Made by a program: the position numbers and the translations under genes. DNA of 64,000 nt from Granulicella sp. L56 (GTDB lineage Bacteria > Acidobacteriota > Terriglobia > Terriglobales > Acidobacteriaceae), in assembly GCF_009765835.1 (NCBI RefSeq), contig NZ_LMUS01000001.1:558001-622000 (forward strand), given 5' to 3'. Positions within the stretch are counted from its first letter, which is position 1. The number at the start of each line of letters is the position of its first letter. This document shows, in pieces, positions 44,348 to 62,171 of this stretch. The notes under the pieces are model-generated. The model worked only from the letters and a program-made list of their open reading frames with translations, did not search any database and was not told the DNA's origin.

Positions 44348-44439
44348 TGGCGGAGAGGGAGGGATTCGAACCCCCGATAGCCTTGCGACTATGTCTGATT
44401 TCGAGTCAGGTGCATTCAACCGGGCTCTGCCACCTCTCC
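44348..44439 (-). tRNA. tRNA-Ser(CGA)
   Basis: Class II tRNA on the minus strand. GGAGAGG (5' end, 44439 down) pairs with CCTCTCC near the 3' end, then discriminator G and encoded CCA (44350-44348). D arm GCA/TGC; anticodon arm CTGACTCGAAATCAG with anticodon CGA; a long variable arm (CATAGTCGCAAGGCTATC); T arm GGGGGTTCGAATCCCTC. About 89 nt plus CCA. It is the integration target of the element to its right: its 5' half is repeated at 62127-62171. Confidence 0.97.
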
Positions 44440-44440
44440 G
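44396..44440. repeat. Left attachment site (att) within tRNA-Ser
   Basis: 45 bp from the anticodon arm to just past the tRNA 5' end. It matches 62127-62171 at 43 of 45 positions; the two differences are A/G at 44419 and G/A at 44424. The anticodon loop lies at its left end, where tyrosine integrases often exchange strands. Confidence 0.9.
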
Positions 44441-44482: not shown

Positions 44483-45532
44483 CTACTGAACCATCTGGCT
44501 GCTGTGACCGAAAGTGTGCCTACTTGAGTTTCGATCGTTCATGATGGCAGCAATATCAGCGCTCCGACTGTGATTGTATCGTGCTGTGGTTGAAAGTGCA
44601 GTATGACCGAGGGCCTTCTGTGTCTTCGAAAGGTTGCCGGTCGCTTCCGTCAGATCCGTGGCAAAGGTATGACGGGCCGAGTAGAGCACTAAATCATCAG
44701 ATAATCCTTCCTTCTTTTTGAAGTTGCTAAAGCGGCTGCTGATGCTATGGGCAGTCATCGACTTACCAGCCCGCTTCCCTTTTCTGGATGGAAAAGCCCA
44801 GATACAACCGACGGTCAACTTGGCACGTTCCAGCATCATCTCTCGCACGCGAGTCGTCATGGAGATATAACGCTTCGCCTTGATACCCGTCTTTCCTCCC
44901 ATGATGAGGATGTCATTTCGGGAGAAGTCGACGTGGTCCCATTGGATAGACACTGCATCATCAGGGCGGATGCCTAGGTCAGCGACGAGCAGATATGCAT
45001 CCCGTAGCGTCCGTGGCGCCTTAGCCAGGATGAGCGACTCTTCGACAGCCTCGACAAGCCGTTTCCTCTCTACCTCTTCGACCATGGTGATCCGTGGCCG
45101 TTTGGTGATGAGTTCGTTCTCGACAGCCAGCGAAAGCATCCTGCGCAGAGTACGCAGAGCGCAATTCACGCTCGACCCAGAGCCAGGGATACTGAGGATC
45201 TGAGTCGTCGAACGCTTGATAGCATCGATTCTCATTCCGGAGATATCCTCCTTCTCAAGTAGTCGCCAGCCGTTGCGGTAATACTCCTTCGTCTTGTCGC
45301 TCAAACGAGTCTTTGCAACAAAATCGAGGAAGGTCACCGCATAGTCCCGAAGGTATGGTGCTTTGTTGTGGATGGTCGTAAGCTTCCCGGCCATCGCTTT
45401 CTGGATGAGCAGGATTTCAGCCTGCTTTGCTTTCTGGACCGTGGTTTGTTCGGTCGATCCTCTATGGCGTTTGCCGGCGACATAGAAGTCGTACCAGAGA
45501 AACCGACTCCCCTTTTTAGGCTTTACTGACAT
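44483..45532 (-). CDS. Tyrosine recombinase (phage-type integrase)
   Basis: Catalyses site-specific integration of the element at tRNA-Ser. 349 residues from ATG at 45532, which has GGAGGAG upstream. An arm-binding region is followed by a SAM-like core-binding domain (YLRDYAVTFLDFVAKTRLSD) and the catalytic domain: box I Arg in LGIRPDDAVSIQW, Lys in GGKTGIKAKR, box II SARHTFATDL where Tyr stands in place of the usual first His (LYSARH), LGH in KALGHTALSTT, and the Tyr nucleophile in TARYNH. Stop is 43 bp from the attachment site. The start overlaps the excisionase gene end by 17 bp, so the two form one operon. Confidence 0.95.
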   Translation of the reverse strand: MSVKPKKGSRFLWYDFYVAGKRHRGSTEQTTVQKAKQAEILLIQKAMAGKLTTIHNKAPYLRDYAVTFLDFVAKTRLSDKTKEYYRNGWRLLEKEDISGMRIDAIKRSTTQILSIPGSGSSVNCALRTLRRMLSLAVENELITKRPRITMVEEVERKRLVEAVEESLILAKAPRTLRDAYLLVADLGIRPDDAVSIQWDHVDFSRNDILIMGGKTGIKAKRYISMTTRVREMMLERAKLTVGCIWAFPSRKGKRAGKSMTAHSISSRFSNFKKKEGLSDDLVLYSARHTFATDLTEATGNLSKTQKALGHTALSTTARYNHSRSADIAAIMNDRNSSRHTFGHSSQMVQ

Positions 45533-45734
45533 GCCGCTCCTCCATGAATGCCTGCACGGACGGTTGGCGGGTGCATGAACGTAGGAACGCGTCGAGCACA
45601 TCTGAATCATAGACCACGGTCTTGTGGGAGAGCCGGATAAACGGGGGCCCGATTCCGGAATTTCTCCAGTTTTTCAGACGCCCCCGCGGTATTCCCAGCC
45701 TTTCCGCAGCTTTTGTCGCATCGAGTGTAGCCAT
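45516..45734 (-). CDS. AlpA/MerR-like excisionase
   Basis: A 72-residue DNA-binding protein: ATKAAERLGIPRGRLKNWRN is a MerR-type helix-turn-helix and IGPPFIRLSHKTVVYDSDVL is the wing of the AlpA/HTH_17 family. It lies directly upstream of the integrase on the same strand and overlaps it, the classic int-xis order, so it probably steers excision or controls int expression. Three other proteins of this family are in the island (53145, 55880, 56594), plus a relic at 61748. Confidence 0.88.
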   Translation of the reverse strand: MATLDATKAAERLGIPRGRLKNWRNSGIGPPFIRLSHKTVVYDSDVLDAFLRSCTRQPSVQAFMEERHVSKA

Positions 45735-47132: not shown

Positions 47133-49670
47133 TTATGCCCTCGACTGCTGCCATGCTCCCGAAGTGCCCGACCATGGACCGATAACTGTCACATTCATCA
47201 CCGATGTGGTATTTCCCGAATCGTCAAGAGGTGAAAGGAATTGGCTTGAATCGATAATTAGAAGGTCGGGCGGCGCTGGCGCATCCAGCCACGGCTGGCC
47301 GGTGATTTGCGATGTCCACGTCGGCGGCGTTCCTGAGTCAGCATCAAGCACGGCGTAGGCAGCATCGACGGCCGTGATCTTCGCGGCGAAGTCAGCAGCG
47401 GGTTCGATCTTCGTTATCACCAGCGGGATGCTGTCTTTTCCAGCTTCACCCCACAGAACCAAGTCACCTGGGAGGATGCCCTCGAGAGCAGTCGTCAGAT
47501 TGATCAGATTTGTAGGCTCACCCCAAACACCTGGCGTGGCTGACACCAGCGCAGTAGTTCCATCCTGCTTCCGGATCCTGACCGCATAGGCCGTCCCCTC
47601 TACGCCAGTCACCTGCTCATCAAGAACTATCGCTGAGAGAAACGGGTTAGTCGGGTCGGTTGGATCTGTCTCAACGGTCTTGGTGATGCGGCCCTGGGCG
47701 AGTCCAACGCCAATGACATCGTTTGCGAACTGGACGAGGTCACCGCGGCTGCACACCAGATTCTCGACGTCGGCGTTCCAGAAATAGGTATTTGGACGAA
47801 GCCGGGAAACCGCCAGATGATAGCGACCGAGACGCCATGCTCCATTTGCGTTGGTGCATCCTGCAATGGTCATCTGCTCGAAATTCGTCGCGAGGGCTAA
47901 CGTGGGGTCCGCTGCCACCATATCTTCATCGCCGAATCCATCGTCGTAAACAATTCGCTCATCCTGCTGAAAGCTCGCTTCTTCGTTGATGAACTGAACG
48001 CGTAGAGCGTCAACGGCATCGGGAAAGGCTCGATTGCCCCCAAAGCCCCAAGAGTTGCGCGGTGTGAACACTTGCACCGGAGTGCTCTGCAGCTCGTCGC
48101 GAATCACACCATATTTGCCGTTGCTGATGTTGAAGCTGGCGCGGCCCGCGCCGGCGATGTCTTTCAGAACCGCATAAAGTGTCGTGGACTGATCGAAGGT
48201 ATTGGAATACGTGAATTCCTTATCGTCGCACTCGACTGCCCAAGCAATGAGGGCGTCATCGTCGATGCGCGATGCATCAATCCTGCGCGGATTCGCCGGG
48301 CAGTCACGCAACAGCCAGCGGAAGACGTATGCCGGGTTATCGCTAAACTCTGTAATCCACGTCGACGTGTCGGCATGCCAGACGGGAACGGGCTGGGAAA
48401 TGATGCAGTTGAACTGATCGATATTGCCGCTGAGTTGGTCCGTCGCCTTGATGCGCATCGCCAGCTTCTTCGTTCCGGTTGAAGAAACCACCGAATAGCG
48501 AATGCTGCGGATGACGGTCCAGGTCAGGTCGCCCACCTCAGATGACGAGTCGGATGAGCCCCAATCAGTCGAGATGCGTGTCACCTTGACGTCATATTGA
48601 TCCTGAGAGGGAAACTTCCACCGAACGCCAACGCGTATAGCCTTCCGCTCTCCGTTTACAACGTGGATTGTGCCGTCGACGTTCGCTGTCGCTGCCGACG
48701 TGCTGATTGTGAGCCCAGATGACGAAGGCACGATGGCTGTCCAAATTCCGGTACCAGTAAGCGAATATTCCACCCTTACCTTGCAAGTCACGGTGACGGC
48801 GTTTCCGTTTTTGTCCAGGCCAAAGAGACCGGATGCGAAGCAAAGGTCTATGGAGCCTTCGTCTGCCGAGACTGACGTTGTGCGCGTGGCCGTGGTTCCA
48901 TCAGTATTGAGCGCATCGCCGGCAGTCGCCTCCGTAATGTCCTGAGAAAAGAGACTGGGGCTAGTGCCGATCTCTGTCTCAACGTCGGTATAGTTGGCGA
49001 GATCGTTATCGCCGATCTTCATATCAGAGGGATCAGGATCGCCATAGCCAAGGTCAAACAAGCACCGGAGGTACTGATCATCTCCGCTCAACTCCGTATA
49101 GGGCAGCGCGGCGTATGGCGGGTAGTAGAGGACGTACCCAACGGGGCATGGGATAGAACCGTAGCGATTCACCTGGTTGCTTGTACCGGTGATACTACTC
49201 AGCAGGTTAGTACTTGCTGATGCGCTCGTAATCGCGCTGGAGGTCTGCGGGGGAATGAGAGCATTAATCACCAGCGAACCTACAAGGCCGAGTCCAGCCG
49301 CCGCAAGACCGGCCGCGACCGCTGCGCTCACATGCAGAAACGAACCTATGGATGCGAATATAGGAGCCGTCGAACCGGCTGTCAGAATGACTCCGACAGC
49401 GAGAGCGGCAAACGCAACGATGCGAAGGATTGTCTTGCCGTTCCCCCCCTCTGGAAAACGGGTGATCATCACGGCATGGCCAGCTTTAGGCCGGATGTGT
49501 GTCCACCATTCAGGCGGTATCGTCATGCCGCCGATTTCGACGTTGCAGGCCGTCGCCGCTGGACCAAGGATCTCCGCTACAGTCAATCCGGCCGGAAACT
49601 CTGCATGAACAATTTCCATAGAAAAAGGATGTGGGCGAGCATGGACAACGATTTCTGCGAGGTTATTCAT
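47133..49670 (-). CDS. Phage tail tip / host-specificity protein, TipJ-like
   Basis: 845 residues resembling the lambda J / TipJ tail tip, which in phages contacts the host surface. The start (VVHARPHPFSMEIVHAEFPA) precedes a hydrophobic segment pair (IVAFAALAVGVILTAGSTA; VSAAVAAGLAAAGLGLVGSL) typical of TipJ, NRYGSIPCPVGYVLYYPPYA, and the central J-type region (AYVFRWLLRDCPANPRRIDASRIDD split, NTFDQSTTLYAVLKDIAGAG). It is shorter than the 1100-1300 residues common in the family, lacking the C-terminal fibronectin-like part; it could be a short form or truncated. Start overlaps the DUF1833 stop (ATGA). Confidence 0.85.
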   Translation of the reverse strand: MNNLAEIVVHARPHPFSMEIVHAEFPAGLTVAEILGPAATACNVEIGGMTIPPEWWTHIRPKAGHAVMITRFPEGGNGKTILRIVAFAALAVGVILTAGSTAPIFASIGSFLHVSAAVAAGLAAAGLGLVGSLVINALIPPQTSSAITSASASTNLLSSITGTSNQVNRYGSIPCPVGYVLYYPPYAALPYTELSGDDQYLRCLFDLGYGDPDPSDMKIGDNDLANYTDVETEIGTSPSLFSQDITEATAGDALNTDGTTATRTTSVSADEGSIDLCFASGLFGLDKNGNAVTVTCKVRVEYSLTGTGIWTAIVPSSSGLTISTSAATANVDGTIHVVNGERKAIRVGVRWKFPSQDQYDVKVTRISTDWGSSDSSSEVGDLTWTVIRSIRYSVVSSTGTKKLAMRIKATDQLSGNIDQFNCIISQPVPVWHADTSTWITEFSDNPAYVFRWLLRDCPANPRRIDASRIDDDALIAWAVECDDKEFTYSNTFDQSTTLYAVLKDIAGAGRASFNISNGKYGVIRDELQSTPVQVFTPRNSWGFGGNRAFPDAVDALRVQFINEEASFQQDERIVYDDGFGDEDMVAADPTLALATNFEQMTIAGCTNANGAWRLGRYHLAVSRLRPNTYFWNADVENLVCSRGDLVQFANDVIGVGLAQGRITKTVETDPTDPTNPFLSAIVLDEQVTGVEGTAYAVRIRKQDGTTALVSATPGVWGEPTNLINLTTALEGILPGDLVLWGEAGKDSIPLVITKIEPAADFAAKITAVDAAYAVLDADSGTPPTWTSQITGQPWLDAPAPPDLLIIDSSQFLSPLDDSGNTTSVMNVTVIGPWSGTSGAWQQSRA

Positions 49671-50149
49671 ATGAAAAGTCCGGGCGAATTTGTGGGTGTG
49701 TAAGTTGATCCTGGGATTGCGGTATTCAAGATGTCATCCTCGAGGCCGATCGTGCCGGTGATTGTGCCGTCGTCATAGTCGATGGAGAGCATCTTGAAAT
49801 CTATCGGACCCGAAACTAACGTATCGGGCTCCGAAGCTGTCACGACCTCCATGACGATGTTTGGGCGCGTGCCGGCGGGCAGATTACGGATTGCCAGCAA
49901 GATCTTGTTATCTACGTTGTCAATCACCAGCTGAACCTGAGGCAGTGAGTCATCATCCTGATTAGGTAGATTGAGCGAGAATGCGAAGGGTTCGAAGGTT
50001 CCGGAGCTACGAACCAGCGGCATCGTGTCGGTCACGAGAAGGTATGGCGAGATGAAACTTGGATGCGATATCGTCAGGCACATCAGGAAGACTTCGCTTG
50101 TCTCCTGGGCCAGTATGGCGCGTAGTTGCGTTGGGCTTATCGTTGACAT
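49667..50149 (-). CDS. DUF1833-family phage tail protein
   Basis: 160 residues: TQLRAILAQETSEVFLMCLT, FEPFAFSLNLPNQDDDSLPQ and VQLVIDNVDNKILLAIRNLP match the DUF1833 tail-associated family found just before TipJ genes in siphophage-like tails. The order DUF1833-TipJ is the normal phage order, which strengthens both calls. AAAGGA precedes the ATG. The 96-bp repeat 50164-50259 lies directly upstream and probably holds its promoter. The usual NlpC/P60 tail gene between the two is missing. Confidence 0.85.
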   Translation of the reverse strand: MSTISPTQLRAILAQETSEVFLMCLTISHPSFISPYLLVTDTMPLVRSSGTFEPFAFSLNLPNQDDDSLPQVQLVIDNVDNKILLAIRNLPAGTRPNIVMEVVTASEPDTLVSGPIDFKMLSIDYDDGTITGTIGLEDDILNTAIPGSTYTPTNSPGLFI

Positions 50150-50163
50150 CGAGGCTATCCTTT

Positions 50164-50259
50164 CGTGACTTCCATTGACTGCAATAGTCGCTCAATATCG
50201 TATTTAGCTTTACAACATTCTCAACCGGCTCTCTTTCGCTTCAAGAGCATGTCAAAAAA
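50164..50259. promoter_or_regulatory. Duplicated regulatory region, copy A
   Basis: A 96-bp direct repeat of 53386-53481; the first 62 bp differ at one position. On the minus strand it contains TTGAGA and TACGAT 16 bp apart, a plausible promoter, and further upstream TTGACATGCTCTT, conserved in both copies. ATTGACTGCAAT gives a small ATTG/CAAT dyad near the gene side. It sits 14 bp upstream of the DUF1833 ATG. Confidence 0.6.
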
Positions 50260-50756
50260 GAGCGATTGTCCCTTTCTGAAAGCCACCGTGCCCAATTGCT
50301 CAAATCCTCCGTTTGGACTTTTTATGTGAGAAACGAATAGTCGAAAATGCGCTGAAGCCCTTGTCGTTACTACCTCAAATAAAAGTAAAGTGACGTCTGA
50401 AACCCTCACAAAACGATCTTTCGCCGTCTCATGAGACCTGCAAAACGCCCCAAGTTTCGCGGATTCGATATTCCGAAATCTTCAATAGACATAGGGGCCC
50501 GAGCGGCCACAGGTACGGTTTTTGATCCCGACTGGAGACACAGGCGGGACGTGCGCTTTCAGTCGCGACTGTCGCTGAGGTGTTATCTCACTGCAAGGTA
50601 TTGCAGGTCAGCGATATAGCGGACATTTTGTCCGGTTTGAAAGTAAACTAAAGTGCCAAAATTTACAGCTTCGTCTGGCGTGCCGGCGCCGTTCGAATTA
50701 CCCGCAATGGCTCAGACTCGGGAAGAACCTAGTGTTTTCTGGAGAGGGCGGGGACT
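50260..50756. other. Gene-free stretch with an isolated iteron and a long repeat
   Basis: No supported gene. At 50619-50640 is GCGGACATTTTGTCCGGTTT, the same dyad motif as inside the initiator gene. From 50652 starts a 120-bp repeat found again at 59213. The left part (50260-50600) shows nothing recognisable; a 62-codon plus-strand frame at 50431 has no ribosome site. Confidence 0.6.
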
Positions 50757-50771
50757 CTAATTTCCTGCCAT
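50652..50771. repeat. 120-bp direct repeat, copy 1
   Basis: Begins AGTGCCAAAATTT, includes GTCTGGCGTGCCGGCGCCGT (a block identical in both copies) and TTCTGG, and ends AATTTCCTGCCAT, the last codons of the gene at 50757-51290. Copy 2 is at 59213-59329. GGCGTGCCGGCGCC is partly palindromic. Confidence 0.8.
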
Positions 50772-51290
50772 GATCATCCGATAGAACGCATCTACTCTGT
50801 CGACGTTTGCCTGCGTCATTCGAGATCGTCGGAACTGGAGTTTCGGCGTCCTCATTCCGAGTCGCAGTGCAAGGTGTGCTCTGTTGAATCCTTCCGCGAT
50901 GAGCTCGTCGATCTGAGCCCAGGCTCCTGATGCTTCCACCTGCGCACCCTTGCGTGCCGCATTGTTATCTACAGCGAGAATCAGCGCCTCGGTGCTTTGG
51001 CGTATCAGAGGTCTTTTGCCGGTCCGGATATCCTTCAGCGTGCATTCTCCAAGAGTGCTGGCTTGAGCCACGGCCTTACGACCTACGCCAGCGCTCGATA
51101 AACGCCTCAGGTGCTCGCGGCAGCGCTCAGACGACACCAGCCTGTCACCACCACCACCACGACGCACCAGACGGCAGCGTTGGCGAAAGCGTGCGTTCGC
51201 TGCCCTGCAAGCCACGCACCTACATCCTGAAATAAACCTCGGCCGGGTTCCATGTGCCGACTGGACGTTTATGTCTCTCCGCTGCTCCAT
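50757..51290 (-). CDS. Cys-motif, HTH-like small protein co-transcribed with the initiator
   Basis: 177 residues from ATG at 51290. The start SAHGTRPRFISGCRCVACRA has a CxCxxC cluster in a HGTR...GCRC..CRAA pattern seen in phage-borne small proteins, probably zinc-binding. The C-terminal half (GAWAQIDELIAEGFNRAHLA, then LRLGMRTPKLQFRRSRMTQA) looks like a helix-turn-helix. Start overlaps the upstream HNH-like gene stop by one base (TGATG) with GGAG 8 nt before it, so translation is coupled. Likely a regulator of, or accessory to, replication. Its last codons lie in the 120-bp repeat. Confidence 0.65.
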   Translation of the reverse strand: MEQRRDINVQSAHGTRPRFISGCRCVACRAANARFRQRCRLVRRGGGGDRLVSSERCREHLRRLSSAGVGRKAVAQASTLGECTLKDIRTGKRPLIRQSTEALILAVDNNAARKGAQVEASGAWAQIDELIAEGFNRAHLALRLGMRTPKLQFRRSRMTQANVDRVDAFYRMIMAGN

Positions 51291-51796
51291 CACGCTTGCT
51301 CCAATCCGTGCGAATCGTCTGCAGATTTTGAAACCATCCATTTCGGTCCATCAAACGTTTTGCGTGTCACCACCTCGGAGATGGTCTGTCTGCAAACGGA
51401 AAGTTCCTTTGCAAGCTCCGGTTGAGTCATACCAGGCCATTGCTCGCGGATGTATCGAACGTCTGCGTCTGTCAGCTTGCGATACCGAATGATCTTTTTG
51501 TCACCGTGCGCCCATTCCAGGTTCGAGACCGCGCAATTCGATCGATCACCATCCTTGAAAATCACTGGGAACGTCGGCTTGCCTCTCAGAAACGCCTTTG
51601 CGACCAGCCGGTGTAATGTGAAGTTTTTCCGTATCTCTCCATGTCGATCCCGAACAATGAGCAGACCAGAGGATAGACGCGTGGGTTTGTGCAGTTTGCC
51701 CGTGGTTAGATCAAGAACCCTGCCGAGCGAGGAAACTGCAAATCTCTGTCCTTCCCCTATTTGCCTAATCGTCTTCCAACGCTCATTCGCTGTCAT
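51290..51796 (-). CDS. NUMOD4/HNH-like protein with C-terminal HTH
   Basis: 168 residues. The N-terminal part ERWKTIRQIGEGQRFAVSSL matches the NUMOD4 motif of HNH homing-type nucleases; LHRLVAKAFLRG then VIFKDGDRSNCAVSNLEWA follows the HNH layout, with His in LHRLV and Asn in NLEW, but Phe-Lys-Asp where the central H/N-H-K-D is usual. Catalysis is thus uncertain. The C-terminal LTDADVRYIREQWPGMTQPE and LAKELSVCRQTISEVV is an HTH. ATGA overlap with the initiator stop and TGATG with the next gene place it in the middle of a coupled operon. May be a selfish endonuclease or a replication accessory. Confidence 0.75.
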   Translation of the reverse strand: MTANERWKTIRQIGEGQRFAVSSLGRVLDLTTGKLHKPTRLSSGLLIVRDRHGEIRKNFTLHRLVAKAFLRGKPTFPVIFKDGDRSNCAVSNLEWAHGDKKIIRYRKLTDADVRYIREQWPGMTQPELAKELSVCRQTISEVVTRKTFDGPKWMVSKSADDSHGLEQA

Positions 51797-52959
51797 GCCG
51801 CCGCTCCCGTCGCACTCAGCAGGTGAACTTGCTCAACACCTGCCGGCAAAAAACTCGCGATGTCGTATCGATCCGCGACATGCGCGAAGTCAGGCGATGG
51901 AATCTGCAGGTAAAGTTCTCCGTTCATCGCCCCGAGCGGCTTGATCGGCTTGATCCAGGTCTCATAGCTCTGGATTCCTAGCTCGCTCTTCAGCGCCTTG
52001 TTCATGCCCGTCCAGATCCGCGCACCTAGCTCGGTGTCGACACCTTCAGGCGCTGACTCGGCTTCCACCTCGGCGGGTTTGTCATCACCCTGGTACACAC
52101 CCACCGCGGCGGGAGATGGCGCACCCTTCCACTTCGAATCCTCAAACCAAAACGAATTCACCGGCTCACCGCGTTCCTGCGATAGGGAGGCCTGCCGTTC
52201 AATCAGCAACATCGCTTTATGGGCAGTCGTTGCCAAAGCGCCAGCCTGAAGACGGATTGCCTCCGCGGCCAATCGAAGAATCTTGTCGGTACTGATGATC
52301 GCCAGTCTCTCGAGCATCGCTTTCGCTAGAGTTGTTTCAGAAGTGTCACCGACAGTCGCAGGGGAGTTATTGGTTTCCGTGACGGTTCCCCTTGACGGTT
52401 CTATGACGGTTCTTAACGGTTCTCTATAGGGATGACGTGAATGTCCGGTATTAGTGACGTCAATGTCCGGTATCGATGACGTGAATGTCCGGTATCGAGC
52501 TACGTGGATGTCCGGTATCGACGGTTGAATAGCGGACATTTTGTCCGGTGTTGAGTGTGCCGAAGCGGTGGTGACAGCGGACATATTGTCCGGTGTTGAA
52601 GGGGTGGCTGATTGCTCCATTGCGGACATTTTGCCCGGTATCTTTCTCGCAAGGAATGAAAGCTCTTCGGAGCTCAGCTTGATGCCACTCTCCAACGCTG
52701 AGAGGCAGAGCTTCGGCACATCCAGAACGTATTCTTTGCGACGTCCCACTTTCACCACCTTCACCCATCCCGCTCTTGCCAGCTTCGGCATATTGCGCCG
52801 CGTGTTTCTGGAATCCTGTCGGCACCACATAGCGAGTCTCTCTACGCTCGGGTAGCATGCGCCGTCTTCGTTGGCATGATCTGCCAGGGCGAGGTACAAC
52901 AAAAGGTCGCTGCTATTCGTCGGACCGCCTTTGAACGCTAGTCCTAACAAGGTCACCAT
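51793..52959 (-). CDS. Replication-initiator-like protein: N-terminal winged helix, C-terminal DnaA-N-like domain
   Basis: 388 residues from ATG at 52959 (GGGAG 8 nt upstream; a longer frame starts at 52995). Residues 1-90 are a helix_turn_helix_36-type domain (DHANEDGACYPSVERLAMWC, DSRNTRRNMPKLARAGWVKV). Residues 100-190 are low-complexity and encoded by the repeats described separately. The last 80 (ARIWTGMNKALKSELGIQSY, ETWIKPIKPLGAMNGELYLQ, PSPDFAHV) match the DnaA N-terminal domain, which binds DnaB-type helicase partners. This layout is that of phage replication initiators. First gene of a three-gene coupled operon with the HNH-like and Cys-motif genes. Role inferred; no ATPase domain is present. 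Confidence 0.8.
   Translation of the reverse strand: MVTLLGLAFKGGPTNSSDLLLYLALADHANEDGACYPSVERLAMWCRQDSRNTRRNMPKLARAGWVKVVKVGRRKEYVLDVPKLCLSALESGIKLSSEELSFLARKIPGKMSAMEQSATPSTPDNMSAVTTASAHSTPDKMSAIQPSIPDIHVARYRTFTSSIPDIDVTNTGHSRHPYREPLRTVIEPSRGTVTETNNSPATVGDTSETTLAKAMLERLAIISTDKILRLAAEAIRLQAGALATTAHKAMLLIERQASLSQERGEPVNSFWFEDSKWKGAPSPAAVGVYQGDDKPAEVEAESAPEGVDTELGARIWTGMNKALKSELGIQSYETWIKPIKPLGAMNGELYLQIPSPDFAHVADRYDIASFLPAGVEQVHLLSATGAAA
52381..52643. other. Candidate replication origin: iteron array inside the initiator gene
   Basis: Three repeat groups. (1) GACGGTTC-type at 52381, 52394, 52405 and 52415. (2) GACGTGAATGTCCGGTAT at 52434-52451, 52456-52473, 52478-52495 and (variant) 52501-52518, spacing 22, 22, 23 bp. 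(3) GCGGACATTTTGTCCGGT at 52532, 52577 and 52622, spacing 45 bp, each a GGACA/TGTCC dyad. All in groups 2 and 3 share TGTCCGGT (one TGCCCGGT). Group 2 is read in all three frames of the gene, so the similarity is DNA-level. Another group-3 copy is at 50619. Origin function is inferred. Confidence 0.65.
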
Positions 52960-53109
52960 GCAGAGATCTCCCATCGCGCAAGCTGGCGCTGGCAAACTTC
53001 GCTCTGCTGAAATAAACGCGGTTTATCTACGCCGATAAAGGCAGTAGAATAGCGGCATCGAGTCCGGATCGGTGGCACGATCCTGCTTGTGATAGCAAGG
53101 ATGTTTGGC

Positions 53110-53144: not shown

Positions 53145-53369
53145 CTATCCCACCGCCGTCGTTTCGTTTGTCGCGGGCTTGCAGATATTCGGTAACGCGG
53201 CGCTTCCGCCAGCATTTCGAAACCTCCGAAGTTCATTCTCGGAGATCATCGTTCGTCGGCCAATTTTTGTGCGCTTCAATTTCCCTTGAGACAGCCAAAG
53301 TTTTATAGTTCCGGGACTGACTCCCCCGAGCTTCTCCGCTGCTGCATTTATCGAGTAGAGATTATCCAT
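53145..53369 (-). CDS. AlpA/excisionase-family DNA-binding protein
   Basis: 74 residues: MDNLYSINAAAEKLGGVSPG, TIKLWLSQGKLKRTKIGRRT and MISENELRRFRNAGG are the MerR-like HTH_17 fold. GAGGTGGAAGC precedes the ATG. Upstream lies the duplicated regulatory region (53386-53481); downstream, the initiator operon on the same strand. It may control replication or excision. Of the four family members in the island, this is the one closest to the putative origin. Confidence 0.85.
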   Translation of the reverse strand: MDNLYSINAAAEKLGGVSPGTIKLWLSQGKLKRTKIGRRTMISENELRRFRNAGGSAALPNICKPATNETTAVG

Positions 53370-53385
53370 GCTTCCACCTCAGTAT

Positions 53386-53481
53386 CGTGACTTCCATTGA
53401 CTGCAATGGTCGCTCAATATCGTATTTAGCTTTACAACATTCTCAACTGGCTCTATCCTAACCAAAGAGCATGTCAAGAAA
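53386..53481. promoter_or_regulatory. Duplicated regulatory region, copy B (divergent)
   Basis: Direct repeat of 50164-50259. It lies between the AlpA-like gene (minus, start 53369) and the gene at 53494 (plus). On the minus strand TTGAGA and TACGAT are 16 bp apart; both copies keep TTGACATGCTCTT at the far end. Probably a shared promoter/operator that gives the initiator region and the tail genes common control. Confidence 0.6.
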
Positions 53482-55728: not shown

Positions 55729-55879
55729 CTTCATCGCGGCACCGCTGGGAACTGGTGGTACTCTTTGCCGTCGAGTAGATGGCCAGCAGCCTTTGCTTAT
55801 CTGATGGCAAGAAATGGGCAAGTTCGCCCTGGGACGCTGAACAGTTACCCCGCTAAAAATTCCACTGGATGTGATCCGT

Positions 55880-56113
55880 ATGTTGTCGACAAAAGAAGCC
55901 GCAGCATTCCTTGGCGTGCAGCCAGCGACCCTGCGCAGTTGGCGCTGTTCGCGAATTGGGCCGCCATTTATTCAACTCAGCCCGCGAAACGTTCGATATG
56001 CCGAGGTCGACTTGGAGCGATATGCGGCGGATCGCAGGATAGACCCGGCCGAACTAATCAAATCTCGGATCGTATCCACGGAACAACGTCGAGCAAAGAA
56101 GACGTCGCTCTAA
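55880..56113 (+). CDS. AlpA/excisionase-family DNA-binding protein
   Basis: 77 residues from ATG at 55880 (GTG at 55871 would add three). LSTKEAAAFLGVQPATLRSW is the HTH; CSRIGPPFIQLSPRNVRYAE and VDLERYAADRRIDPAELI complete the AlpA fold. A frameshifted copy of the same gene lies at 61748-61960 with matching DNA (for example GAGGTCGACTTGGA in both). The neighbours are small island genes, so its target is unknown. Confidence 0.82.
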   Translation: MLSTKEAAAFLGVQPATLRSWRCSRIGPPFIQLSPRNVRYAEVDLERYAADRRIDPAELIKSRIVSTEQRRAKKTSL

Positions 56114-56593: not shown

Positions 56594-56824
56594 TCACGCT
56601 CGTACGGACGGGTCATGGCTGCATTCGGCGATGTAGGCGAGTAAATCGGCTTCATCATACCGAATGCGGCCTCCCAGCTTGAAGTACCGAGGACCTCTAC
56701 CCTCTGCCCGCCATCGGTTGATTGTGCCGACCGGCCTCGTGAGCAATGCGGCAGCTTCTTCCGGCGTCAGGAATGTTGGGACCTTAGCCGATCTCTTTTT
56801 CGGGGGATTCACTTGGTCATCCAT
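56594..56824 (-). CDS. AlpA/excisionase-family DNA-binding protein
   Basis: 76 residues from ATG at 56824. FLTPEEAAALLTRPVGTINR and WRAEGRGPRYFKLGGRIRYD are the textbook HTH_17 pattern (second half: EADLLAYIAECSHD). Start overlaps the stop of the upstream winged-helix gene by 8 bp, so it is co-translated with 56817-57137 and probably 57149-57358, forming a three-gene regulatory operon divergent from the S24-like gene. Confidence 0.88.
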   Translation of the reverse strand: MDDQVNPPKKRSAKVPTFLTPEEAAALLTRPVGTINRWRAEGRGPRYFKLGGRIRYDEADLLAYIAECSHDPSVRA

Positions 56825-57137
56825 AAGACTCTTCCATTCTTGACGTGCTGAGATCACCCTCAACGAATGTGAGCATATTTTCGGCCGCTATACGCTTCTG
56901 TAGGGCCGTTCGGCCTTTTTCCGAGATGGAATACCATGGCTCAGTCGATCGCTCTCTCCTGACGCACCCTAGGCGCGTGAGTGTATCCATCGTGCTCGTG
57001 CGCACCAGATCGACTGTAAGTTCATCCAGAGTGAAGTAAAAGCGGCCGTCAGTGTCGCAATACCAAATCGCAACTCCGTCCTGATTGAGACGTTGTAGCA
57101 TCTGCCACGATGCCAGAGATAGACGCAGGTCTCGCAT
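56817..57137 (-). CDS. Winged-helix-like small protein
   Basis: 106 residues from ATG at 57137 (GAGG about 9 nt upstream; a GTG at 57146 is too close to it). LASWQMLQRLNQDGVAIWYC, TSTMDTLTRLGCVRRERSTE and PWYSISEKGRTALQKRIAAE have the order of a winged helix: recognition helix, wing (SISEKG), and terminal helix. Not assigned to a family. Middle gene of the RHH - wHTH - AlpA operon. Confidence 0.65.
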   Translation of the reverse strand: MRDLRLSLASWQMLQRLNQDGVAIWYCDTDGRFYFTLDELTVDLVRTSTMDTLTRLGCVRRERSTEPWYSISEKGRTALQKRIAAENMLTFVEGDLSTSRMEESYG

Positions 57138-59170: not shown

Positions 59171-59212
59171 GCGTGAAGTTTAGCAGTCGCGTGCGTTAGG
59201 AAAGGCTAGTCT

Positions 59213-59329
59213 AGTGCCAAAATTTTCACCTGTGTCTGGCGTGCCGGCGCCGTTCGAACAACCCGCATTGATTCAGGCTCAGGGAGAACCTGTCGTTTTC
59301 TGGGAATGGGGGCACTAATTTCCTGCCAT
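59213..59329. repeat. 120-bp direct repeat, copy 2
   Basis: Copy of 50652-50771: AGTGCCAAAATTTT, the identical block GTCTGGCGTGCCGGCGCCGT followed by TCGAA, and the terminal AATTTCCTGCCAT, which in copy 1 is the end of a gene. Here that gene is absent; only its last codons remain. It ends 6 bp before the GH92 stop codon and so marks the boundary between the phage-like part and the cargo gene. Confidence 0.8.
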
Positions 59330-59335
59330 CCTAGA

Positions 59336-61678
59336 TCATTTTGAATGACGTGCGATCTCCGTTGACATCGAAGGCGGCAGATCAGGCTGTTGAGTAGCCC
59401 ATGTGCTGCCTTGCGTGTCACTAAGATCGAAATCGATCTCCTCGCTTGAGCCTTGCAGTTCGTCTAGCGATAGCCACGAGCTACGGTGCGCCTTGCCGTT
59501 GATCTTCACTCCCTCCACATAGTTTCCTTTACCATTGCGAACCACAGTAAGGGTCCTGCCTCGACTAAGTCGCAAGGTCGCTCGTGAGAACCGGGGCGTA
59601 CCCAGCACAACTCCATCGCGCCCAGGGATGGCGGGATACATACCAAGAGCATTCCAGAGATAGACACCTGATGTAGCGCCCAGATCGTCATTGCCCGGGA
59701 TGCCTCCCGGCGTCGCGTTGAACGTCTCGTCTTCAATCCGGGTAACCAGGCTGGCCGTCTTCCATGGTTTACCCAAAAACGTATAAGCGTAGGGAGTCAC
59801 GAAGTCAGGTTCGTTCGCCATGTTGAAACATGGCTCTCCCCAACACACCAGCTTGGAGAAGAACCGATCCAGCCGTTTCTCGACCATCTCATTGCTGCCG
59901 ATCGAAGCAAACAATCCCTGGTAGTCGAAGGGCAGCATGAACGTGTACTGATAGGTGTTTCCTTCTTCAAAACCAAGCTGATCGGTCGGCACCGAGGCCT
60001 TGGGTCTATGCGGCAACGACTTCTCTGCATCGAACCCAGGCAGCCACGAGCCATCGGCGAGCCTCGGCCTCATCCAGTGCGTAGTCGGGTCCATAAGATT
60101 GCGCCAGTTACTCGCGAGCTTCAGATGGAGGTTATACGACGCCTTATCGCCGAGAGACTTAGCCAACTGCGAGGCAGCAAAATCCGCATTCGCAAACTCA
60201 AGTGTCTCAGAGACTGAGATGACATTGCTCGACGGGATATACCCCAGCTTTAGATAGTCTGCCAGATTATCGCGCTCGGTACGGCCATGCTGTCCAAGGC
60301 CGGGAATCGTTGCCACCTTGTCTGCATACTTCAGGGCTGACTTCGCATCGAACTTCCTCGCTCCAAATGCATAGATGGACGAGACGATGATCGGTGGCGA
60401 ATCGCCGCCCATAACGTAAGAACCATCGTTCGCCGTTACCCATCGCGGGTAAGACCCTAATTGCTCAGCGTCGTTCACCAACGACTGTGCAAGGTCGCTG
60501 GCCTCCTGAGGAAACAGAAGCGCCTGAAGCTGTACCGTGTTGCGGTAGATATCCCAATCAGAAATGTTTGTGTATTGCCCCGTCTGGCCCGGGTGCAGAT
60601 GGTGAACCTTATTGTCGAGCCCCATGTACTCGCCGTCGGCATCACTGAAGAGAGTTTGCCCAATCAATTCATGATAAAGCCCGGTATAAAAGATCTTGCG
60701 ATCGGCCGCATTTGCGCCTTCAATCTTGATACTCGCAAGCGCATTCTCCCAACGATCCTGAGCATGCCGCCGAGTCGCATCAAAATTCCATCCCGGCAAT
60801 TCAGCCCGTAAGTTTGCTCGAGCCTTTTCTTCGCTTACATAAGACAATCCCACCTTTATCAACTGTGTCTGATCGTCGCCTAGGTCAACCCACGCGGCAG
60901 CCTTCTTCCCGGCAACATGTTGCTTCGAAGATTGCTGAACATCGTCCTGCCAGAGAGATATAGCGCGAGGCTTAGACTGGAATGCATAGGCCACATGCAG
61001 CGTATATTTGGTCGGAGACCCGCAGAATCCACCTGCCGTGACCGTTCCACTTAGAATGCCGTCGCCTCCAACACTCAGGCTTTCTCCATCATGTTCTCGG
61101 CCAAGCGGTGGCAGAAAAGATATATGCACATCTGCCGAAGCGCTGCCGGGGCCATTAACTAATACACCTGCATGACGCCCTTTAGGAAAAGTGAGCCGTG
61201 CCATCCCGCTACGGTCAGATGAAGTTAGTTCGACAATCGTTCCATCGGCGAGCTTCACCGAATAGTACCCGGGCTGCGCCACTTCATCGGTGTGCTTGAA
61301 TGCTACACTTTCAAGCTGCTTCGGATCTCGCGTCGCGTTCGGCGGCACACTCAATGGAAGTATCGGCATGTCTCCAAATAGCGGACATCCACCACCACTC
61401 AAATGCGTCAAACTGAAACCGCGAATCTTCTTCTGGTCATAAAAGTAGAAGTTCTGGTCCGTGTCTGGACTCCACTGGATCATGCCGAAGGGCAGCGTTG
61501 CTCCCGGATAAGTATTTCCGCCATTCGTTGTGCCGATCATTGGATCGACGCTGTCAATCAGGCGCTCCTGCCCCTTGACTGTTGAAACGCATGCAAGTAA
61601 GAGAAAGAAAGTTGTAACAAATGCCTTCGCATCAGGGCCACAGATCCCCCTCAGCCGTCTTATGCAGCGTTCGAGCAA
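59336..61678 (-). CDS. Alpha-mannosidase-type glycoside hydrolase family 92, exported (island cargo)
   Basis: 780 residues. Start chosen as TTG at 61678, with AGGAG 8 nt upstream; it gives a basic n-region (ERCIRRLRGICG) and a hydrophobic core (AFVTTFFLLLACVSTVKG). The frame further upstream runs antisense through a pseudogene and is not credible. GH92 features: LIDSVDPMIGTTNGGNTYPG, ATLPFGMIQWSPDTD, the acid Glu in FEEGNTYQYTFMLP, and GIPGNDDLGATSGVYLWNAL with the base Asp. Family enzymes cleave alpha-mannosides with calcium. It is a metabolic gene within a phage-like island, next to a relic recombination module. Confidence 0.92.
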   Translation of the reverse strand: MLERCIRRLRGICGPDAKAFVTTFFLLLACVSTVKGQERLIDSVDPMIGTTNGGNTYPGATLPFGMIQWSPDTDQNFYFYDQKKIRGFSLTHLSGGGCPLFGDMPILPLSVPPNATRDPKQLESVAFKHTDEVAQPGYYSVKLADGTIVELTSSDRSGMARLTFPKGRHAGVLVNGPGSASADVHISFLPPLGREHDGESLSVGGDGILSGTVTAGGFCGSPTKYTLHVAYAFQSKPRAISLWQDDVQQSSKQHVAGKKAAAWVDLGDDQTQLIKVGLSYVSEEKARANLRAELPGWNFDATRRHAQDRWENALASIKIEGANAADRKIFYTGLYHELIGQTLFSDADGEYMGLDNKVHHLHPGQTGQYTNISDWDIYRNTVQLQALLFPQEASDLAQSLVNDAEQLGSYPRWVTANDGSYVMGGDSPPIIVSSIYAFGARKFDAKSALKYADKVATIPGLGQHGRTERDNLADYLKLGYIPSSNVISVSETLEFANADFAASQLAKSLGDKASYNLHLKLASNWRNLMDPTTHWMRPRLADGSWLPGFDAEKSLPHRPKASVPTDQLGFEEGNTYQYTFMLPFDYQGLFASIGSNEMVEKRLDRFFSKLVCWGEPCFNMANEPDFVTPYAYTFLGKPWKTASLVTRIEDETFNATPGGIPGNDDLGATSGVYLWNALGMYPAIPGRDGVVLGTPRFSRATLRLSRGRTLTVVRNGKGNYVEGVKINGKAHRSSWLSLDELQGSSEEIDFDLSDTQGSTWATQQPDLPPSMSTEIARHSK

Positions 61679-61747
61679 GTTCGCATCTCCTGAATCATGT
61701 ATTAGATCGATGGGGAATTCTACTAGAATCGCGCCTAGACTGGTCTG

Positions 61748-61960
61748 ATGCAGCTGATTCCTCGGAGTGCAACCAGCCCCCTCGTAGTTGGCGATGTTCA
61801 CGGATCAGTCCTCCGTTTATCCAAACTTTGGCTCACGAATGTGAAGTATCCCGAGGTCGACTTGGAACGCTGTGTAGCTCATCGTCGAATAGATCCAGGA
61901 ACATTATTTGGTCACGGAAAGTACAAGCTCCGCACTGACGATGTGCGTCTAGTTCACTAC
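61748..61960 (+). pseudogene. Decayed AlpA/excisionase gene
   Basis: A degraded copy of the gene at 55880-56113. One frame reads SWRCSRISPPFIQ (as in SWRCSRIGPPFIQ); after a shift another reads KYPEVDLERCVAHRRIDPG (as in RYAEVDLERYAADRRIDPA). Identical DNA blocks include GAGGTCGACTTGGA. The N-terminal HTH start is missing and at least one frameshift is needed, so it cannot be functional. Confidence 0.8.
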
Positions 61961-62126: not shown

Positions 62127-62171
62127 TGATTTCGAGTCAGGTGCATTCAGCCGGACTCTGCCACCTCTCCG
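62127..62171. repeat. Right attachment site: orphan 5' half of tRNA-Ser
   Basis: 45 bp matching 44396-44440 at 43 positions: from TGATTTCGAGTCAGG (anticodon arm) to CCACCTCTCCG (5' end). No 3' half of the tRNA follows on its left, so this is not a tRNA gene but the site remnant left by integration. Confidence 0.9.

Follow-up and report, generated by a model that had tools for sequence, protein, structure and literature searches.

We analyzed a window of 64,000 nucleotides from Granulicella sp. L56 (contig NZ_LMUS01000001.1, positions 558,001 to 622,000), which contains an integrated phage-like element with a gene for a predicted replication initiator. We found that this gene holds, between its two domains, three dyads, four iterons, and then an array of GAACC words, in this order along the coding strand (Table 1). 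This region is very probably the element's replication origin, located within the gene that encodes the initiator. The GAACC array (52380-52422) was missed in the original prediction, a first reading of the window that had pointed to the iterons, and it is the conserved part of these origins. An intragenic origin with repeats in several frames is of the known lambda O kind; what appears to be new is the conserved array, and the initiator has a rare tail resembling DnaA domain I.

The original prediction described four repeat copies spaced 22, 22, and 23 bp apart within the coding sequence. We found all four, each 21 nucleotides (nt) long and 76 to 100% identical to the reference copy, and the peptides named for successive copies (IPDIHV, RYRTFTS, IPDIDV, and NTGHSRH) are correct in translation. 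The three dyads beside them are also present, 24 nt each and 45 bp apart. Three of the seven sites are dyads (one imperfect), and the four iterons have only a single half-site in common. Along the coding strand, successive cores are 45, 45, 33, 23, 22, and 22 bp apart. These ACCGGACA-type cores, one of which is ACCGGGCA, lie in frames 2, 2, 2, 2, 1, 2, and 0 of the gene. The repeats are therefore read in all three frames, as had been claimed, but five of the seven cores share one frame and give xPDxxx or xPGxxx peptides.

The core is overrepresented in the window, as the original prediction requires: ACCGGACA occurs 7 times against 1.68 expected, a count reached in 0 of 100 shuffles. Six of these copies are inside the initiator gene, and the seventh (50629-50636) is outside it. 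The best 9-mer of the linker has 7 copies, against a maximum of 4 in 40 dinucleotide shuffles. ATGTCCGGTRT is found four times in the 4.7-Mb genome, every time at this locus; because the backward pattern is found three times genome-wide, it is the clustering of this motif, not its genome count, that is unusual. The array that follows the last iteron consists of four GAACCGT(C/T)A copies 10, 11, and 13 bp apart, from 52422 to 52380.

We then compared the gene with related initiator genes. The survey took 76 viral loci gathered by the winged helix alone and added the window and lambda, giving 78 open reading frames (ORFs); 7 were dropped as incomplete or shorter than 450 nt, and the remaining 71 formed 44 clusters at 60% identity. 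Iterons were called significant when a linker 9-mer had at least three copies and its count was reached by at most 0.025 of 40 shuffles. We found significant internal repeats in 34 of the 44 HTH_36/O-like representatives (window and lambda included), and in 33 of these 34 the repeats fall in more than one frame, the exception being L063. The annotated iterons of lambda O, at offsets 348, 368, 392, and 415, are in frames 0, 2, 2, and 1. The window is therefore one case of many. The suggestion that multiframe iterons are special to this gene is not supported, and the proposed lambdoid layout, with the origin inside the initiator gene, is borne out by the same design in the 34 genes.

The commonest of the 132 spacings in the 34 genes are 22 bp (33 times), 23 bp (22), 17 bp (16), and 21 bp (12). 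Multiples of 3 make up 37 of the 132 (28%; a chi-square test for equal use of the three remainders gives P of 0.38), and periods of 11 and 3 give resultant lengths of 0.41 and 0.09, respectively. Codon phasing is absent from the spacings, the two-turn spacing is the commonest, and 17 bp is the main departure. These counts uphold the view that the repetition is kept at the level of DNA more than at that of protein. They uphold only in part the view that the spacing puts bound proteins on one helix face: helical phasing is general, but 17 bp is about one and a half turns and does not fit.

The iterons differ between genes, and some cores, such as CCCCGCA and GGGTGAC, recur. L063 has six iterons, 21 bp (once 27 bp) apart, all in a single frame. 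L096 has an in-frame peptide repeat, VVRQTDK, which is below significance in the iteron test. In these two genes, helix phase and frame may agree. In a distant viral initiator (L077/L078), the linker peptides TGHPCP and HRTPVS suggest, from the peptides only, a dyad with the same ACCGGACA half-site.

The array stays while the iterons vary, across phages of different hosts. GAACC is the dominant k-mer repeated 8 to 14 nt apart in the linkers, in 25 of 44 genes against 0.55 expected (20 shuffles each). With lambda excluded, 30 of 43 genes carry the consensus GAACC(A/G)TCA, 81 times in total; this consensus is partly imposed, because the rule kept AACC fixed and allowed two mismatches in all. With a leave-one-out weight matrix, we found an array pair at P of ≤0.02 in 37 of 44 genes (100 shuffles each). 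Fourteen of the 44 lack a strict array, and L043, L069, L094, L100, L105, L108, and L110 pass the leave-one-out test with a degenerate one. Lambda O fails this test (P of 0.119). A scan with lambda O returned, among the best 80 of 501 loci, only sequences 99 to 100% identical to it, so lambda is the sole member of its class in our comparison.

The 81 array copies are distributed over frames 0, 1, and 2 as 43, 18, and 20, and 26 of the 30 genes use more than one frame. In the EPS tripeptides of the linkers, the E codon is GAA in 36 of 36 cases, against 358 of 720 elsewhere in the 43 genes, and the S codon is TCA in 34 of 36, against 152 of 749 elsewhere. Codon use and frames show that the array is under constraint at the DNA level. 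Its translation in three frames, as EPS, NHQ, and RTV peptides, may be what kept the GAACC word from notice.

Blind scans gave the same picture. Searching IMG/VR for two array copies returned at least 120 stretches, of which 80 loci were kept. We found the pair inside a winged helix-turn-helix (wHTH) ORF in 63 of the 80, on the coding strand in 63 of 63, and in 41 clusters. The other 17 were in ORFs cut at the stretch end (seven; L121, L123, L146, L156, L162, L168, and L188), in simple repeats (six; L128, L133, L140, L144, L145, and L185), or in other ORFs (four; L120, L130, L138, and L178). The reversed-pattern control scan, which was complete, gave 60 loci with 0 in wHTH ORFs; this was the single control pattern, and the wHTH hidden Markov model used for scoring was built from the survey itself. 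Within the phylum, the array pair occurred in 6 of 297 genomes; besides the present one, only L298 has it in a wHTH gene, and the other four do not.

We also looked at 12 named phages, a manual choice made to cover different hosts among the best 80 of 96 and of 151 records. The array is present in five (Pseudomonas phages PP9W2, LESphi3, and phi2, Vibrio phage 1.036.O, and Sphingopyxis phage VSN-002). A form longer by one base, GAACC(A/G)GTCA, is present in two or three copies in mEp460, 118970_sal3, ZF40, PseuP_222, and ST13-OXA48phi12.5, at a spacing of 17 bp, to which three of these phages add a spacing of 12 bp. A single copy is present in SI8, and mEp021 lacks the word. No survey gene has two copies of the longer form. 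An IMG/VR scan for it (at least 120 stretches, 80 kept; the reversed control above applies to the shorter form only) placed 74 of 80 in wHTH ORFs, on the coding strand, in 11 clusters; of the other six, five were cut at the stretch end and one was a tandem repeat. The sequence of the BstA aba element, as printed in the available part of its source, contains no GAACC. A literature search, whose thin coverage of subscription journals makes it weak evidence of novelty, returned no description of a GAACC array among the papers listed.

The array also coincides with weak DNA. In a nearest-neighbor profile, the least stable stretch within the window gene corresponds to 40-bp segments starting at coding positions 530 to 570 and includes the last iteron and most of the array. 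When 30 genes were pooled, the weakest stretch coincided with the array (z of +1.93, standard error of 0.18, 20 bp into the array), and at 50 bp or more outward on either side, the means were about -0.3 to +0.5. The last iteron precedes the array by a median of 23.5 bp (range, 10 to 64 bp in 28 genes; 19 to 28 bp in 20 of the 28) and by exactly 22 bp in three Pseudomonas aeruginosa phages.

The initiator matches two PHROG families, phrog_1032 ("replication initiation protein"; E value of 3e-13) and the O-like phrog_391 (6e-11). A winged helix and a DnaA_N-like domain had been proposed for it, and both HTH_36 and DnaA_N exceed their Pfam cutoffs, the latter covering profile positions 2 to 44 of 65. 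Pfam at an E value of ≤0.1 gave no other match. Neither an AAA+ domain, nor a DnaA-box-binding domain, nor a plasmid Rep domain of the TrfA/RepE kind was found with Pfam. The Phage_rep_O model, which we take to be Pfam's name for the lambda O family, did not match either, while O-like PHROG families do. The C terminus resembles DnaA domain I in both sequence profile and predicted fold. In P0001, the 388-residue form starting at the ATG at 52959, residues 116 to 205 of the linker are predicted to be disordered (predicted local distance difference test score of <50). The close homologs P0002 to P0004 were compared at the peptide level.

The HTH_36 and DnaA_N pairing was found in 5 of 11 proteins of the homolog search (P0001, the window's own, among those listed), in 1 of 4 in a second search (the query itself), and in 1 of 43 in the survey (the window). 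As judged from these sequences, the pairing appears to be rare in the sets searched but not unique. The whole protein had no tblastn match in 50,697 records of phages or 72,556 of plasmids and no match in a PDB sequence search. In a scan of genome contigs, it found three loci that match the DnaA_N part only. With NCBIfam, eight proteins had no match and the ninth, P0011, matched DnaA far below the cutoff. A P-like helicase loader is not next to the initiator: the neighbor at 51290-51796 is HNH-like, and phrog_1590 (function unassigned) follows.

We considered and rejected two histories for the C-terminal half. Capture of the DnaA domain from the host left no sign, since the identity to the DnaA-like match in the host genome is 42% (53 residues) and that to a Desulfotruncus locus, which may be dnaA, is 49% (37 residues). 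Nor does the origin seem to travel with this half. L005, L006, and L008 match it on other N-terminal domains (L006 over residues 219 to 290 only) and hold no AACC(A/G)T word. The best repeats of L006 (4 copies; shuffle maximum, 5) and L008 (5 copies; maximum, 5) are within the range of 20 shuffles, and that of L005 (5 copies; maximum, 4) has distances of 11, 206, 12, and 11, unlike iterons.

We propose that the dyads and iterons, about two, three, or four helical turns apart, are binding sites of the winged helix and that a compact protein-DNA complex would form and strain the adjacent weak stretch. This stretch, with about one GAACC(A/G)TCA copy per helical turn in one orientation, would then open, and one array strand would be held by the initiator or the helicase machinery. 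The C terminus would bring in the host DnaB helicase, which in lambda is the task of a separate P protein. What the analysis shows directly is the repeats with their frames and phasing, the conservation of the array, the low stability within the gene, and the predicted domain folds; we infer initiator binding, opening, helicase recruitment, and activity in this element. Since the repeats encode a floppy linker between domains, any reading frame would be tolerated. The available parts of the sources report that, in plasmids, winged-helix initiators bind both the iterons and a single strand of the repeated unwinding element (PMC4081077), that lambdoid O genes contain iterons and an AT-rich tract (PMC7466680), and that DnaA domain I binds DnaB at Escherichia coli oriC (PMC6127211). 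By analogy, the array would be a conserved unwinding-element repeat, a step that draws on its position, its weakness, and the plasmid precedent.

The window gene, with its HTH_36 winged helix followed by repeats and the GAACC array, has repeated sites inside an initiator gene and weak DNA directly beside them, as lambda does. In phage lambda, with ori within gene O, and in the Stx phages P27 and 933W, midgene repeats likewise lie 20 to 24 bp apart in several frames. In contrast to the window, lambda O lacks a GAACC array and is partnered by a separate P protein; unlike lambda's, the window initiator has a DnaA domain I-like C terminus and a winged helix that Pfam identifies as HTH_36. Lambdoid origins have AT-rich DNA beside the repeats (PMC7466680, available part), and repeated motifs are already known, as a kind, from the AT-rich regions of origins, including that of lambda (PMC4081077, available part). 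Because such motifs were already reported for lambda, the idea of repeats in a phage origin is not new.

The iteron plasmids RK2 and F have their origins outside the rep gene. Like the window, they combine a winged-helix initiator (TrfA and RepE), iterons, and repeats in the unwinding element (PMC4081077, as far as available). The latter are 13-mers or 8-mers of an AT-rich region, whereas the window has GAACC(A/G)TCA at 10 to 13 bp. At Bacillus oriC, where DnaA and DnaD act, the opening region has short strand-specific words, the DnaA-trios and a DnaD recognition element, according to the accessible text of PMC10201434. The window initiator shares DnaA domain I with Bacillus DnaA but lacks its AAA+ domain, the words differ, and nothing marks the array as a DnaA-trio. 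DnaD_N was matched at an E value of ≤0.01 by 20 of 43 surveyed proteins; we considered whether the array matches the DnaD TnnT word, a reading that only the A form would allow, and dropped it. Phage P1 has an initiator different from that of the window. Its lytic origin is, like the one proposed here, thought to be inside the initiator gene, repL, and synonymous changes in the AT-rich part reduce replication; the part of this account that is available mentions no such array (PMC9948254).

The element is about 17.7 kb long, as a 45-bp stretch of tRNA-Ser (44348-44439), which the integrase adjoins, recurs at its right end. It holds excisionase-like helix-turn-helix genes, an S24 peptidase, and ORFs that we take from their translations to be tail-like. 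Three separate excisionase-like HTH_17 genes (53145-53369, 55871-56113, and 56594-56863) are present. A long ORF before the right attachment repeat (59336-61801), presumably a GH92 alpha-mannosidase, is possible cargo. A control region-like duplication (50163-50259 and 53385-53481; 70 nt at 97% and 17 nt at 94%, in the same register) lies beside the start of the 49667-50149 ORF and, in its second copy, between divergent genes adjoining the initiator. Another duplication (50630-50771 and 59191-59329; 122 nt at 76%, then 22 nt at 91%) overlaps the extra dyad with its first copy. The extra dyad lies between ORFs 49667-50149 and 50757-51341.

TABLE 1 Features of the proposed origin, its initiator gene, and the surrounding element (positions in the window)
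Feature	Position	Strand	Remark
Initiator gene, 400 codons	51793-52995	minus	Start TTG at 52995; Pfam and PHROG matches
Winged helix HTH_36, residues 28-78	52762-52914	minus	Pfam E value of 3.5e-10; presumed iteron-binding domain
DnaA_N (DnaA domain I-like) C-terminal domain, residues 326-367	51895-52020	minus	Pfam E value of 1.1e-7; presumed helicase-recruiting part
Dyad 3, imperfect, one change in right half (TGCCC)	52621-52644		Family D2
Dyad 2, GGACA-TAT-TGTCC	52576-52599		Family D2
Dyad 1, GGACA-TTT-TGTCC	52531-52554		Family D2
Iteron 4	52498-52518	plus	Family D1
Iteron 3	52475-52495	plus	Family D1
Iteron 2	52453-52473	plus	Family D1
Iteron 1	52431-52451	plus	Family D1
GAACC array copy 1 (GAACCGTTA), frame 0	52414-52422	minus	Belongs to the 81-copy family (30 of 43 genes)
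GAACC array copy 2 (GAACCGTCA), frame 1	52404-52412	minus	10 bp from copy 1
GAACC array copy 3 (GAACCGTCA), frame 0	52393-52401	minus	11 bp from copy 2
GAACC array copy 4 (GAACCGTCA), frame 1	52380-52388	minus	13 bp from copy 3
Least stable stretch within gene, presumed unwinding element	52385-52465		Nearest-neighbor profile
Extra dyad outside gene, possible operator or copy-control site	50618-50641		Family D3, 88% to reference copy
Tyrosine integrase	44483-45610	minus	Pfam Phage_integrase, E value of 5e-22
Left attachment repeat in tRNA-Ser	44396-44440		43 of 45 bases equal to right repeat
Right attachment repeat	62127-62171		Repeat of 45-bp tRNA-Ser stretch

Several observations weigh against the origin as we read it. 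Ten of the 44 genes, including lambda with 3 copies (P of 0.65), have no significant iterons by the crude 9-mer test, and 7 have no significant array even by the leave-one-out test (lambda, L060, L084, L086, L095, L096, and L104). The stability dip is the minimum of the gene only: weaker DNA (-1.25 kcal per step, compared with -1.32) lies in an intergenic stretch upstream, and a downstream one is about as weak (-1.31). The motif GAACC(A/G)TCA accounts for part of the dip, being itself weak compared with GC-rich genes. A frame shift in P0002 to P0004 is suggested from peptides only. The peptide may matter as well, since one frame holds 5 of the 7 iteron cores and 43 of the 81 array copies. These shared frames, and the single-frame copies of L063, are also what a protein-level repeat in a disordered linker would have in its favor. 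That explanation is already contradicted, and we give it almost no credence, by the use of more than one frame in nearly all of the significant genes and most arrays, by the nearly fixed codons, and by the share of spacings that are multiples of three (28%).

The dyads and iterons could instead be operators or copy-control sites through which the initiator, or another regulator, represses its own gene or nearby ones, with replication starting elsewhere. Operators are typically palindromic, one dyad copy is found beyond the gene in the gap upstream of the 49667-50149 ORF, and the DNA upstream of the initiator gene is weaker. We nevertheless find this improbable, since the repeats are inside the coding sequence behind the winged helix, are helically phased, and are followed by the weak GAACC array; since related genes are alike in repeats (34 of 44) and strict array (30 of 43); and since the same position in lambda is the annotated origin. 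Reading the array not as an unwinding element but as a host-factor binding site, or a single-strand priming site, common to phages of this class would account for its conservation across hosts while iterons vary and for its fixed orientation in the 63 scan loci. This is a rather doubtful alternative: the array sits at the weakest DNA beside the last iteron in the pooled genes, the unwinding-element position in lambda and iteron plasmids, and lambda O, which uses the same host machinery, lacks it. Finally, the element may be defective, because it spans only 17.7 kb between the attachment repeats and few structural genes were identified. We regard an inactive, decayed prophage that has kept an old origin as rather unlikely, given an initiator frame open over 400 codons, nearly identical iterons, and the presence of an integrase and both attachment repeats.

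Beyond this element, we tentatively suggest that GAACC(A/G)TCA and its variant GAACC(A/G)GTCA may be a widely shared unwinding-element word of tailed-phage origins. Recognition of one strand would not depend on the fast-changing iterons and would run through either the conserved winged-helix initiator or a universal helicase partner. If so, phages would have in this word their own equivalent of the DnaA-trios and of the 13-mers of plasmids. To our knowledge, the origins of most phages are unmapped, and with a DNA word marking the opening region within the initiator gene, origins could be called from sequence alone. The array also isolates the question of what reads a fixed word while the iterons change. 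The DnaA-domain-I tail suggests a phage route to the host helicase without a separate loader, and what look like "protein repeats" in linkers of this sort can be sites in the DNA.
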